DNA from: a virus
Strand: one strand, 5' to 3'
Length of the DNA stretch: 29,683 bases
Virus record (IMG/VR): IMGVR_UViG_3300034068_000089
Location: 1 to 29,683 of that record
In this document: positions 10,000-16,744 of the stretch, piece after piece
How positions within the stretch are numbered: position 1 is the first letter of the stretch
Layout of the letters: each line of letters opens with the position of its first letter
Notes under the pieces: model-generated
The model's input: only the letters and a program-made list of their open reading frames with translations
Database searches by the model: none
Told to the model about the DNA's origin: nothing
Position numbers and translations under genes: made by a program

Positions 10000-10515
10000 T
10001 TATTTATATTGTCCGTACTTTTCAAAATGTTTTATTGACTCCAGCATCTCGTTAATCATAAAATGTGCTGATGTGTGACTGATTCCAAAATGCTTGGCAA
10101 TCGTGCGACCAGTAGAAATCTGCTTATCGTAATATGTCTCAAAAAATATTAACTTAATTTTGTCGGTTATTTGTCCTCTATAATTTTCTAATATCTCTAA
10201 TCTGTCGCTAAACTTAATTTCGTCTTCAAGTGAATCGTCAATTGAATCTGGTATGTATTCGTTCTCAACTGAATTTATTATCTCTTTTTTTGAATCTGAC
10301 TGCCATAATAATTCACATTTGATTAAATGAAGAAACATTGCTTTTGCTTCGTGTTCTTCTTTGTACTGGTACTTTGATTCACTTGCTTTGATGTAAGCGT
10401 TGTTAATTATCGTATCAATGTCAAGTTGTGAATTTAATCTACTGACAAAATACCTTGTATAACGATTTATTTCATCGTAGTTTTTGGTAATGTAGTTATT
10501 TAGTAATGCTATCAT
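10000..10515 (-). CDS. Sigma-factor-like HTH protein (171 aa)
   Basis: Possible regulator of late transcription. The N-terminal part (about 15-70, with LDIDTIINNAYIKA) resembles region 2 of ECF sigma factors. The C-terminal part (about 116-163) has a helix-turn-helix-like segment, TGRTIAKHFGISHTSAHFMINEM, in the place of sigma region 4. The linker is acidic. It starts inside the end of the 68-residue gene (20-base overlap). It lies in front of the terminase/tail genes, where a late activator would be expected. A DNA-binding accessory of packaging is an alternative. A sigma role is inferred from the layout, not shown by invariant residues. Confidence 0.5.
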   Translation of the reverse strand: MIALLNNYITKNYDEINRYTRYFVSRLNSQLDIDTIINNAYIKASESKYQYKEEHEAKAMFLHLIKCELLWQSDSKKEIINSVENEYIPDSIDDSLEDEIKFSDRLEILENYRGQITDKIKLIFFETYYDKQISTGRTIAKHFGISHTSAHFMINEMLESIKHFEKYGQYK

Positions 10516-12447: not shown

Positions 12448-14217
12448 TTAAAAATCAAATGAAGTATCTGGTACTATTGCATTGTTGTAAATTGGTGTAT
12501 TATTTCTTTTACCGGTTCTTAACTCGTCAATAGTTGTAAATGGTGTTTCTCCATTAATAAAATATCTATTAGACTTTCTATCGTATTGAATACCTGACAC
12601 ATCTTGTGGTATACCTACTAATTTTTGTTTTTTAATCTTTTGACTTCCAAAAGTTACTTCTGTATCTGCAAAATCTATTGCTCTATTAGGTCGCCATATA
12701 AACATTACATTGTCTGCTTTATCTGCAAATGTACCACCGCCTTTTATTTTATTAGTATCTGGTCTTGGATATTTACCGTTACTATCTTTTTGTGGTGTAA
12801 CTTGGTGCGCTACTAAATTAACGCTTATTTGATTCTCTACAGCAAATCTTTTTAACTCTGACATAAACCTTGAGATGTATAAATCTTCTCTCTCTCCGCT
12901 TTTCATTTTATGCTCTACCGTATTGTAAGGGTCTATTATTAATGCTCGTACTCCTTCTTTTCTAATTAAGTGTCGTGCTTTTTCAAATATTGTTTCAAGT
13001 TCAAATCCTTTCTCTGGATAAATCATATAAAAATGGTTTTTTATAAATTCAGCACCTTGTATATATTCTTCCTCTGTCATTTGATTAGACTTATAAAAAG
13101 GGTCTGCTGACTTACCAATAAACATTTCTATTAAGTTATCGTAAAAATCATTAATAGGTGTGTTTTCAGGGCTAAATACTGCAAACTTAAAACCATCGTA
13201 AAAAGCCTTTAATACTGCGAGTGTTTCTAAAAATAAACTTTTACCTTCGTTTTGGTAACCAGTCCATACGTTAACCTCTGATTTTCTCCAAGTCCAAGCA
13301 TTATCTATTTCTTTCCAGTAAGTTGTTGTGCCTCTTTCTTTACCATTTCTAAATGAATCTAACATAGAATCAAATACAGAATCTAATGTAAAAATTCCTT
13401 CTATTGGAACTTCTTTAGCTTTTGTTTTTATCTCTGCTAATTTTAATCTACCATATTTTAATAGATATTCATTTGCATCTTTGCAGTCTTCAAATTCAAT
13501 TATTAAACATCTTTCCGCACCAATTCGTCTTATTAATTCATCTTTTAATCTTCTACCATTATCATCGTTATCTACTGCAATATAAACTTTTTCTGCTGCA
13601 TCAAACATTGAATAAGATTTTGAAATACATTCTAATTTCTTATCTATGTTTTTATCATTTACATTTGGCGCACCTTGATTAACAGATGTTGAGTTTTCAA
13701 ATCCTGCTACCTCAAATGCCATACAATCAAATTCACCTTCACATATAATTATTTCTTTTTTGTTCACACATCTATCGTAATTGTACATTATAGGTTCTGC
13801 ATCTTTTGCTTGTCTAAAATCCTTTTCTTTTATAAATCGTTGTTTATAGTTTATTAATTCTCCATTTCTTAAATAAGGAAAGATAATTGATTTACCATCT
13901 TTAGCCATTACAATCTTATGGTTCATAACTACGCTTTGAGTTATACCACGAGAAGTAAACATTTCTAATGCTTCATCTGATAAAGAAGTGAAGTTTTGTT
14001 TTGTTGGTCTTTCGTATTTAACAATGTAATTAATCGGTTTAACGCAGCCACTCCATCCGCACTTATGACAATTGTATAAACCTTCATTTAAATTAATAGA
14101 AAGGCAAGTATCTTTAATATTTGTTTTGCCAATTTTAACACAATTAGGGCAAGTTACTTTTTGCTCTTGTCTGTTACCTTTTGGTTCAATGCCTATATTT
14201 ATAAAATTATCAATCAT
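12448..14217 (-). CDS. Primase-helicase (T7 gp4/Twinkle type)
   Basis: Makes primers and unwinds DNA at the phage fork. Domains in order: zinc-binding domain (C23/C26 and C50/C53, residues 20-58); TOPRIM primase fold with E160 in IICEGEFD and D216/D218 in VDNDDNGRR; RecA-like helicase with Walker A GYQNEGKS (320-327), E351 in FSPEN, Walker B ALIIDP ending at D429, and LVAHQVTP as the motif-3 region. At 589 aa it is full-length. It overlaps the initiator gene by four bases (ATGA), so loader and helicase are made together. No phage DNA polymerase is present, so the host polymerase is probably used. Confidence 0.93.
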   Translation of the reverse strand: MIDNFINIGIEPKGNRQEQKVTCPNCVKIGKTNIKDTCLSINLNEGLYNCHKCGWSGCVKPINYIVKYERPTKQNFTSLSDEALEMFTSRGITQSVVMNHKIVMAKDGKSIIFPYLRNGELINYKQRFIKEKDFRQAKDAEPIMYNYDRCVNKKEIIICEGEFDCMAFEVAGFENSTSVNQGAPNVNDKNIDKKLECISKSYSMFDAAEKVYIAVDNDDNGRRLKDELIRRIGAERCLIIEFEDCKDANEYLLKYGRLKLAEIKTKAKEVPIEGIFTLDSVFDSMLDSFRNGKERGTTTYWKEIDNAWTWRKSEVNVWTGYQNEGKSLFLETLAVLKAFYDGFKFAVFSPENTPINDFYDNLIEMFIGKSADPFYKSNQMTEEEYIQGAEFIKNHFYMIYPEKGFELETIFEKARHLIRKEGVRALIIDPYNTVEHKMKSGEREDLYISRFMSELKRFAVENQISVNLVAHQVTPQKDSNGKYPRPDTNKIKGGGTFADKADNVMFIWRPNRAIDFADTEVTFGSQKIKKQKLVGIPQDVSGIQYDRKSNRYFINGETPFTTIDELRTGKRNNTPIYNNAIVPDTSFDF

Positions 14218-14984
14218 AAGTTAGTTTTTGTTACTGCATCTCTTTCCATCAATTCTGCAAATGTATAATTTCTTTTTGGTTCTTGCACATCTTCAATTTT
14301 CATTACTGCTAACTCATCTTTCCAACATTCATTATGTAACCAAGTCCAAGGATTTTTTCTATACTTTTTTTCTTCTGTTTTTTTAACGTAAAATAAAACG
14401 GTGTTTAATGCTTGTTGTCTTTTAACACCAGATAAAGAAATAAATTTAGCTTTTGTTTTTTTATAGTCTACTTTTTTATCGTAGGCATTCCAAAATATCT
14501 CAAAATCACTCTCAAGTGCGATAGCACGATTAATTTCTTTTTCTTCTTCTTCTTTTATATTATCTTCTTTTATTTCATCTTCTCTTATCTCTTCTTCTCT
14601 TATGCCTTTCGTTTGGCTTTCAGTTGGGTTTAAGTTGGGTTTCGTTTGGGTTTCGTTTGGGTTTTTCTTTGGTCTACCACCCTTGCTACCATTGGCACTA
14701 TTCTTATTACTCAACTTACTAACTTCATCAAGCTGATTATCTAAAAACTTAATACTAATAGTGTTTTCTGTAACATCAATAATACCTTCTTTAATTAACT
14801 CATCTAACTCATTAGGATAGTTAAAACGTCTTGAAATTTGCTCTAATGTTAGACTGCATTGTCTTTGCCAATAGTAGGAACAAATATTAATAAATAAACC
14901 TTGTGCCGATATAGAACAAAAAGATATATCTTTTGTTAAATATTCTGCTGGTTCAAACTTAAAATATGGTAATTCTTTTGCCAT
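14214..14984 (-). CDS. Replication initiator / helicase-loader-like protein (256 aa)
   Basis: Likely origin-binding initiator. I choose ATG 14984 (MAKELPYFKFEPAEYL) because the frame upstream runs through a terminator hairpin. The N-terminal winged-helix-like domain (about 1-90) has the pattern of the phage Lin1244/DUF4373-type replication proteins. A low-complexity linker (NPNETQTK..., then EEIREDEIKED...) covers about 105-150. The C-terminal domain (about 160-235, with FEIFWNAYDKKVDYKKTKAKF and PWTWLHNECW) is DnaD/helicase-loader-like. The linker DNA is an 11-bp tandem array, so the origin probably lies inside this gene. It is followed directly by the primase-helicase. Confidence 0.75.
   Translation of the reverse strand: MAKELPYFKFEPAEYLTKDISFCSISAQGLFINICSYYWQRQCSLTLEQISRRFNYPNELDELIKEGIIDVTENTISIKFLDNQLDEVSKLSNKNSANGSKGGRPKKNPNETQTKPNLNPTESQTKGIREEEIREDEIKEDNIKEEEEKEINRAIALESDFEIFWNAYDKKVDYKKTKAKFISLSGVKRQQALNTVLFYVKKTEEKKYRKNPWTWLHNECWKDELAVMKIEDVQEPKRNYTFAELMERDAVTKTNL
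14607..14661. repeat. Five tandem 11-bp iterons, candidate replication origin
   Basis: Five contiguous units on the plus strand: TTTCGTTTGGC, TTTCAGTTGGG, TTTAAGTTGGG, TTTCGTTTGGG, TTTCGTTTGGG. The period of 11 is not a multiple of three, so the repeat is kept at DNA level and not as a peptide repeat; 11 bp is one helical turn. It is inside the initiator gene, as the lambda origin is inside O. An AT- and CT-rich stretch (14530-14606) lies next to it. Confidence 0.65.
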
Positions 14985-15004
14985 AATAAATAAATGAATA
15001 AAAA

Positions 15005-15092
15005 AACCCCTATAAATCCGAAGGGTCTCAAGCTTCTTCATTATAAGGGTTAATTAAAATTCCTTCTGTTACCTTTATTGAGACCGTAACAA
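15005..15092 (-). promoter_or_regulatory. Structured 5' leader with complementary loops and terminator upstream of the initiator
   Basis: Read on the minus strand, hairpin A has arms TGTTAC (15092-15087) and GTAACA (15073-15068) with a 13-base loop. Hairpin T has arms AACCCTTATAA (15051-15041) and TTATAGGGGTT (15015-15005), 11 pairs including one G-U, followed by a T run at 15006-15000. An inner GAAG/CTTC stem (15039-15036 with 15023-15020) presents an apical loop. Loop A carries GGTCTCAA (15086-15079) and loop T carries the perfect complement TTGAGACC (15031-15024). It looks like an attenuator, with a possible kissing-loop or pseudoknot state. Confidence 0.6.
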
Positions 15093-15096
15093 GTGC

Positions 15097-15104
15097 AAAT
15101 ATAC
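15097..15104 (-). promoter_or_regulatory. Likely promoter -7 box for the initiator leader
   Basis: TATATTTG on the minus strand matches the Bacteroidota -7 box and lies just upstream of the structured leader, giving a leader of roughly 100 bases. No TTG is found at the usual 19-base spacing, so it is a weak or regulated promoter at best. Confidence 0.45.
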
Positions 15105-16331: not shown

Positions 16332-16744
16332 TTTTTGATTTTTATTTGTTCTACATTTACTCCGAACTTTTCGGCAATTTCTTCTAAACTTAACTCTAAG
16401 TTAAATTCTATTTTTGGCTCAATTTCTTTTGCGTATCTCCAAGTTGATGTTTCAGTTACATTATTAACTTCTTTATCATTTTCAGCAACAGACCAAGCTA
16501 AAAATTTATTATTTCTTGTCATAAAAACTTTACGTTTAATCCATCTTATCGAATCATTTGAGACCAGCATCCATCGTTCAGGTGTTTTTAATGGAAAAGC
16601 TATTTCTTCATTTTCACGATAATAAGTACCATCTTTTCTAAATGATAATTTTTCACCACATTTAATTGGAAAATTTGATGGGTCATCTATTTTAGTAACT
16701 TTTACTTTAATCCAATCTCCTACTTTTACGTTTTCTAAACTCAT
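16328..16744 (-). CDS. Hypothetical early protein (138 aa)
   Basis: The beta-rich N-terminus (NVKVGDWIKVKVTKIDD, then GEKLSFRKDGTYYREN) looks like an SH3-like or OB-like barrel with many Lys/Trp residues. The C-terminal helix ends in LSLEEIAEKFGVNVEQIKIKK, which resembles a short DNA-binding helix-turn-helix or LysM-like tail. It is coupled by ATGA to the SSB-like gene and lies 12 bases from the exonuclease gene, so a role in DNA metabolism is plausible. No named family. Confidence 0.6.
   Translation of the reverse strand: MSLENVKVGDWIKVKVTKIDDPSNFPIKCGEKLSFRKDGTYYRENEEIAFPLKTPERWMLVSNDSIRWIKRKVFMTRNNKFLAWSVAENDKEVNNVTETSTWRYAKEIEPKIEFNLELSLEEIAEKFGVNVEQIKIKK

Follow-up and report, generated by a model that had tools for sequence, protein, structure and literature searches.

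Several described systems place a terminator or a structured RNA ahead of replication or early genes. Classical attenuators usually have an antiterminator helix that is mutually exclusive with the terminator. The pT181 and pIP501 repR attenuators have a terminator in the leader preceding a replication initiator gene and rely on an antisense RNA and an antiterminator fold. The P4 CI RNA and the P1/P7 c4 antisense RNA (RF01695) combine a phage leader, short complementary segments and premature termination before early genes. In HK022, early operons open with a structured RNA, put, of which the phage has more than one; put is not known to be based on a loop–loop helix over its own terminator. The timing of gene expression is little known in the phages that infect Bacteroidota, a group of major hosts in the gut and the sea.

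The DNA analysed here is a viral stretch of 29,683 nucleotides (IMG/VR record IMGVR_UViG_3300034068_000089), referred to as the window. On its minus strand, between a 90-aa ORF (15387-15115) and a gene for a 256-aa initiator-like protein, lies an element that is moderately likely, on comparative grounds, to be a cis-acting leader RNA of the start of DNA-metabolism operons in Bacteroidota phages, with kissing loops that shape an intrinsic terminator. Reading the sequence of minus strand 15103-15005 confirmed all parts described in the original prediction, and the layout is as follows:

15096-15103, minus strand: -7 box TATATTTG of the Bacteroidota type, a putative promoter recognized by consensus only
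15067-15091, minus strand: P1 hairpin at or near the RNA 5' end, TGTTAC (15091-15086) with GTAACA (15072-15067), from sequence and fold
15078-15085, minus strand: K, the kissing 8-mer GGTCTCAA inside the P1 loop, whose pairing with K' covaries
15052-15066, minus strand: A/U-rich linker from P1 to P2, with similar A/U-rich linkers in relatives
15005-15051, minus strand: P2, a terminator-like stem of 11 bp, AACCCTTATAA (15051-15041) with TTATAGGGGTT (15015-15005), from sequence and fold
15037-15040, minus strand: 5' strand (UGAA) of a 4x4 internal loop, from the leader alignment
15016-15019, minus strand: 3' strand (GGAU) of the same internal loop, from the leader alignment
15020-15036, minus strand: P3 hairpin (GAAG/CTTC), which caps P2
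15024-15031, minus strand: K', the complementary 8-mer TTGAGACC inside the P3 loop, from sequence and covariation
15000-15006, minus strand: U-run of seven U after P2
14214-14984, minus strand: gene for the replication initiator-like protein, 256 aa (phrog_270, replication initiation protein, E = 3.7e-17; phrog_9327, primosomal protein), with its ATG at 14984, 15 nt past the U-run
12448-14217, minus strand: TOPRIM primase/DnaB-type helicase, next in the operon (Pfam DnaB_C and Toprim_2; phrog_239)

Folded alone, the window leader is unremarkable (z = -1.25 versus shuffles), so relatives were needed to decide on the loop pairing. A lone sequence that folds no better than many shuffles is what chance complementarity, or an inverted repeat serving as a DNA operator, would give. 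The K 8-mer or its complement is found in the 29.7-kb window at the element's two sites and in one copy within coding sequence, a third GGTCTCAA at 16558-16565 (minus strand) inside ORF 16744-16328; about 0.6 chance matches are expected per window, and this copy is probably meaningless.

Many relatives of the initiator gene in IMG/VR have the same architecture upstream, with loop pairs that differ yet remain complementary (GGGTCAGA/TCTGACCC, GCTTCGAC/GTCGAAGC, CAGGCAGG/CCTGCCTG, GTTACAG/CTGTAAC and others). For instance, the close relative L095 differs from the window by a kissing pair changed from G-C to A-U, a P1 pair changed from A-U to G-C and a P3 pair changed from A-U to U-A. A covariance model (R1) was built from eight leaders of type A, the layout in which an 8-nt K, usually with AC at its end, is followed by AUUAUA within a 14-nt loop, the internal loop is UGAA/GGAU and K' begins with GU. 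R1 contained only P1, P2 and P3; because it was blind to K:K', which went unscored, the kissing columns provide an independent test. A search of 560 kb returned 49 matches, representing 35 distinct leaders, and 261 of the 271 lettered cells in their K/K' columns are Watson–Crick; most of the others are alignment shifts (L345, L033, L099) in leaders whose loops are complementary by eye. Compensatory change was found in all eight K:K' pairs. The helices behave alike in the alignment of relatives: 5/5 pairs of P1 have changed on both sides, and 11/12 pairs of P2 and 5/5 pairs of P3 covary. The original prediction had proposed that the two loops pair and had named compensatory changes in both loop 8-mers and in the terminator arms as the sign to seek in relatives' leaders, and both are borne out. 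For the structure taken together, covariation scores 0.804, versus 0.209 in shuffles and no more than 0.149 when the structure is slid along the alignment. An unguided search of all column pairs recovered exactly four covarying helices, namely P1, K, P2 and P3, and among those column pairs no alternative or antiterminator helix with covariation was present. This unbiased test spans type A; for the other layout, support comes from inspection of the initiator-upstream set by eye and from a scanner.

Two hairpin loops joined by covarying Watson–Crick pairs are what a kissing-loop RNA consists of. Judged by this comparison, the K:K' pairing is real: its letters vary freely between viruses and always change together, which argues for a real regulatory RNA. 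Covariation in four helices refutes chance complementarity, and with a strand-specific U-run on the same strand as the downstream gene, neither chance nor a DNA operator is a credible account of the element.

A structure scanner that requires a -7 box, P1, the kissing pairing, P3, P2 and a U-run (TTTT) scored the window site at 61, with no other window site at 40 or above and a top score of 47 in 2.5 Mb of second-order Markov shuffles. Across 2.4 Mb of phage DNA, once a few A/T-only matches had been set aside as noise, it found 82 convincing elements with 58 different K. The -7 box and the terminator-like hairpin follow in order in all 82, and an ORF lies close behind in 79. The box stands 3-7 nt ahead of P1 in 68 of the 82, which agrees with the promoter-proximal position first proposed and puts the start of P1 at about the expected transcription start. 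The second hairpin, likewise, proved terminator-like, with a stable stem (median -17.6 kcal/mol; the kissing helix has a median of -9.5 kcal/mol) directly before the U-run. Over the 9 nt that begin at the stem base, 97.6% of elements have at least six T, versus 4% of random 9-mers, an enrichment that is partly by construction, since the scanner itself asks for TTTT. The first ATG usually lies about 10-28 nt beyond the U-run on the same strand. A stable stem with a U-run at its base is the sequence signature of an intrinsic terminator, and position, U-run and stem stability together fit such a terminator between promoter and gene. In DUF6291, an unrelated gene family outside the sample, the scanner found the element in 19 of 60 distinct upstream regions and in none of the shuffles; 10 K were new, and more elements than these 19 are visible by eye.

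The diversity of K bears on whether the terminated RNA of about 90 nt could be a trans-acting sRNA, with K as a specificity code for copy-number or superinfection control in the manner of ColE1 RNAI, P4 CI RNA or P1 c4. Complementary loops could pair in trans as well as in cis, there are 58 different K, and K differs within every contig with several elements. Against this, the K pairs change no faster than those of P1, P2 and P3 (at an equal or slower rate), which fits a structural cis helix and gives no sign of diversifying selection; moreover, antisense -7 boxes are not enriched (4/58 versus 5.2 expected), and copies of K or K' show no general enrichment downstream. A trans-acting role is thus quite unlikely. 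The rates also led to the rejection of K-specific immunity under diversifying selection, and the box counts to that of antisense control from an opposite-strand promoter, although the P4 and P1 antisense RNAs arise otherwise.

Some elements depart from the common form at their 3' side. Short U-runs (TTTAT) occur in L034, L079 and L102, and the L025 group keeps K and K' and has no U-run after the hairpin. A third copy of K ends 0-1 nt before the start codon in L025:4860-5003, L043, L047:2671-2790 and L446:1380-1503, and L391 and L395 are looser, likely cases (AACCACT before the ATG). With such a copy, K' could pair with either the 5' hairpin or the start region, which suggests, from sequence, added translational control in this subset. 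Duplication of K near the start codon is not general (2/58 versus 0.9 expected in a 70-nt stretch), nor are K triples enriched across the collection (15 in 5.6 Mb of strand-bases versus 6 in 2.0 Mb shuffled). It is rather unlikely that the element acts chiefly on mRNA stability or translation, as a 5' UTR module whose hairpin and U-rich tract shield the 5' end or supply an A/U-rich start region, with termination incidental. The start codon close behind the U-run, the L025 group without a U-run and the minority in which K' could mask the start (L025, L047, L446) are in keeping with such a module. Conversely, the strong U-run enrichment at the stem base is needed by a terminator and needless for a protective hairpin, and the K copy at the start is confined to few elements.

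The internal loop between P2 and P3 takes at least three forms. UGAA/GGAU is present in 36 of the 82 elements and mirrored in 5; type A members share it, together with AUUAUA, and the other types do not share the two. In the other layout, the loops are 6-7 nt long and wholly paired, often together with AGUA/GAA, which is the loop E consensus and is also found mirrored. This interchange and mirroring of types argues against a ligand pocket and for a geometric role, in which the internal loop positions P3 for contact between its loop and that of P1. Two further leaders differ in their helices. In L094:2868-2966 the 5' loop could pair as ATTGCAC/GTGCAAT or as ACTCCT/AGGAGT with the terminator hairpin, possibly a bistable version. 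The leader at L008:2490-2620 is element-like, its kissing loops being CTCTCAC/GTGAGAG, and its K' is closed by P2 directly, with neither P3 nor an internal loop.

A structured leader close to the promoter that combines a terminator with a tertiary contact of the pseudoknot kind could be a ligand-binding riboswitch, and a ligand-responsive switch was among the functions first suggested. This is very improbable, because the internal-loop types are unrelated or mirrored and no antiterminator helix is conserved. No unpaired core common to all members is apparent, and the genes downstream are diverse phage DNA-metabolism genes. A search of Rfam 15 gave nothing at or above the family gathering thresholds, either in the window or at elements from about 20 related loci, with the best sub-threshold matches resembling chance, which upholds the earlier view that the leader belongs to no described riboswitch class. 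At L104:601-635 the DUF805b RNA of Rfam was recognized (E = 8e-12), in a phage that has a kissing element at 2874-2982.

The genes that follow the elements form 26 groups by shared 3-mers. They include initiators of several unrelated families, a SNF2-type helicase fused to a methylase and a ParB-methylase, as well as ERF, DUF6291, DUF6378 and NUMOD4-HNH homing endonucleases. Because the same element precedes so many unrelated genes, it is not tied to the initiator, and the expectation of a device specific to the replication initiator is not supported. The proposal that translation from an extended initiator start melts the hairpin fared no better: the frame is open in the window and interrupted by a stop in L095, and of the 34 elements with such an ATG only 4 keep an open, in-frame reading. 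Homing endonuclease genes of the NUMOD4-HNH type lie within operons with their own promoter and element at L007:3317-3404, L015:4352-4460 and L369:40354-40450 (those of L015 and L369 recognized by their N-termini only), and it looks as if the kissing module were travelling with the selfish gene.

Cultured phages also carry the element. With the scanner, it was found twice in Flavobacterium columnare phage FCV-1 (35865-35971 and 40354-40450) and once in Cellulophaga phage phi10:1, whose host is C. baltica (10239-10337); Flavobacterium phage 11b and Polaribacter phage Danklef_1 have it as well. No convincing scanner match was obtained in Flavobacterium 6H and morran9-1, Leeuwenhoekiella Arctus_1 or Cellulophaga Nekkels_1. 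A second covariance model, of type A only, gave one match among 40 related bacterial genomes, in the positive control, a Lutibacter contig with a phage-type initiator; the other 39 bacterial genomes of the family gave no match with this type-A-only model. A DNA similarity search of one element against annotated phages was empty, as expected because the helices change fast.

A phage may carry up to three elements (G003 has three), and wherever a locus has two or three, as in eleven combinations, their K differ. That a single phage has elements directly after several of its early operon promoters recalls HK022 put and lambda nut, and the kissing complex might be a platform for a phage or host protein or for RNA polymerase, making the polymerase resistant to the element's terminator and to later ones. 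Fully paired kissing loops of 6-8 nt and structured internal loops (UGAA/GGAU; AGUA/GAA) do resemble recognition surfaces. However, the internal loops vary in type and orientation, leaving no single conserved surface evident, and the element carries its own terminator. A search for a NusG-like antiterminator gene common to element-bearing phages found none in 14 records, and a platform of this kind is unlikely.

In the reading favoured here, that of a cis-acting leader with a kissing-shaped terminator, comparison between relatives establishes structure, conservation and placement: an RNA that would start at about P1 folds into P1 and the P2/P3 hairpin followed by the U-run, with the P1 loop pairing the P3 loop. 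P2 and the U-run would act as an intrinsic terminator. P1 would be transcribed first, and its loop would catch K' as K' leaves the polymerase; the kissing helix would then hold the internal loop and P3 in position, allowing P2 to close early enough for the majority of transcripts to stop as an RNA of about 90 nt. When the loops are kept apart, whether by a phage or host protein, by pausing or by another RNA, the polymerase would enter the replication genes. That kissing helps termination, with read-through when the loops are held apart, is the favoured sign of the effect, which we infer because the helix would organize a hairpin whose P3 is otherwise weak and whose internal loop is large. The opposite sign may also apply, with kissing delaying P2 and causing read-through. 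It is possible, if on the doubtful side, that a terminator gated by intramolecular kissing at the transcript 5' end is a new principle. Such a promoter–terminator module would be interchangeable across many Bacteroidota phage operons, any loop sequence would do provided that complementarity is kept, and some members would duplicate the loop at the start codon, coupling termination with translation control.

The RNA class is widespread, shows unusually clean covariation and stands ahead of replication and DNA-modification operons. Flavobacterium, Cellulophaga and Polaribacter are tractable hosts, and the presence of the class in their cultured phages makes it directly testable; the many natural loop pairs offer matched kissing-loop parts for studying how a tertiary contact tunes termination.

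Compared with described systems, the element shares with ColE1 RNAI/RNAII and TAR/TAR* loop–loop helices of 6-8 bp that take up all or nearly all of each loop (in L117, for instance, GAAT[GTTACAG]ATTC with TCG[CTGTAAC]CGA). Unlike these pairs, it holds both loops in one leader, the second of its hairpins is a probable terminator and there is no evident antisense promoter. In contrast to the P4 CI and c4 RNAs, the pairing partners lie within the same leader of about 90 nt, there is no Rfam match and no sign of diversifying selection. A terminator in an initiator leader is shared with pT181 and pIP501 repR, whereas the element shows no sign of an antisense RNA or an antiterminator. The DUF805b RNA (RF02914) is, like the element, a small cis-regulatory motif in one of the same phages (L104); it differs in being a 35-nt hairpin at another gene with no terminator, and the two are not homologous. 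As with classical attenuators, a terminator-like leader hairpin lies between the putative promoter and the gene, but a conserved antiterminator helix is absent. Attenuation would fit this arrangement of the leader. The element resembles HK022 put as a structured RNA at the start of early operons, with several per phage. No description of it was found in the literature searched, the 3161 human-microbiome RNA candidates of PMC8040213 excepted. The element, which has a ColE1-like kissing complex, would work in the manner of an attenuator, yet features that define antisense control and two-state attenuators of the classical kind are missing from it, and it apparently represents a new, previously undescribed structural class of cis-regulatory leader RNA.
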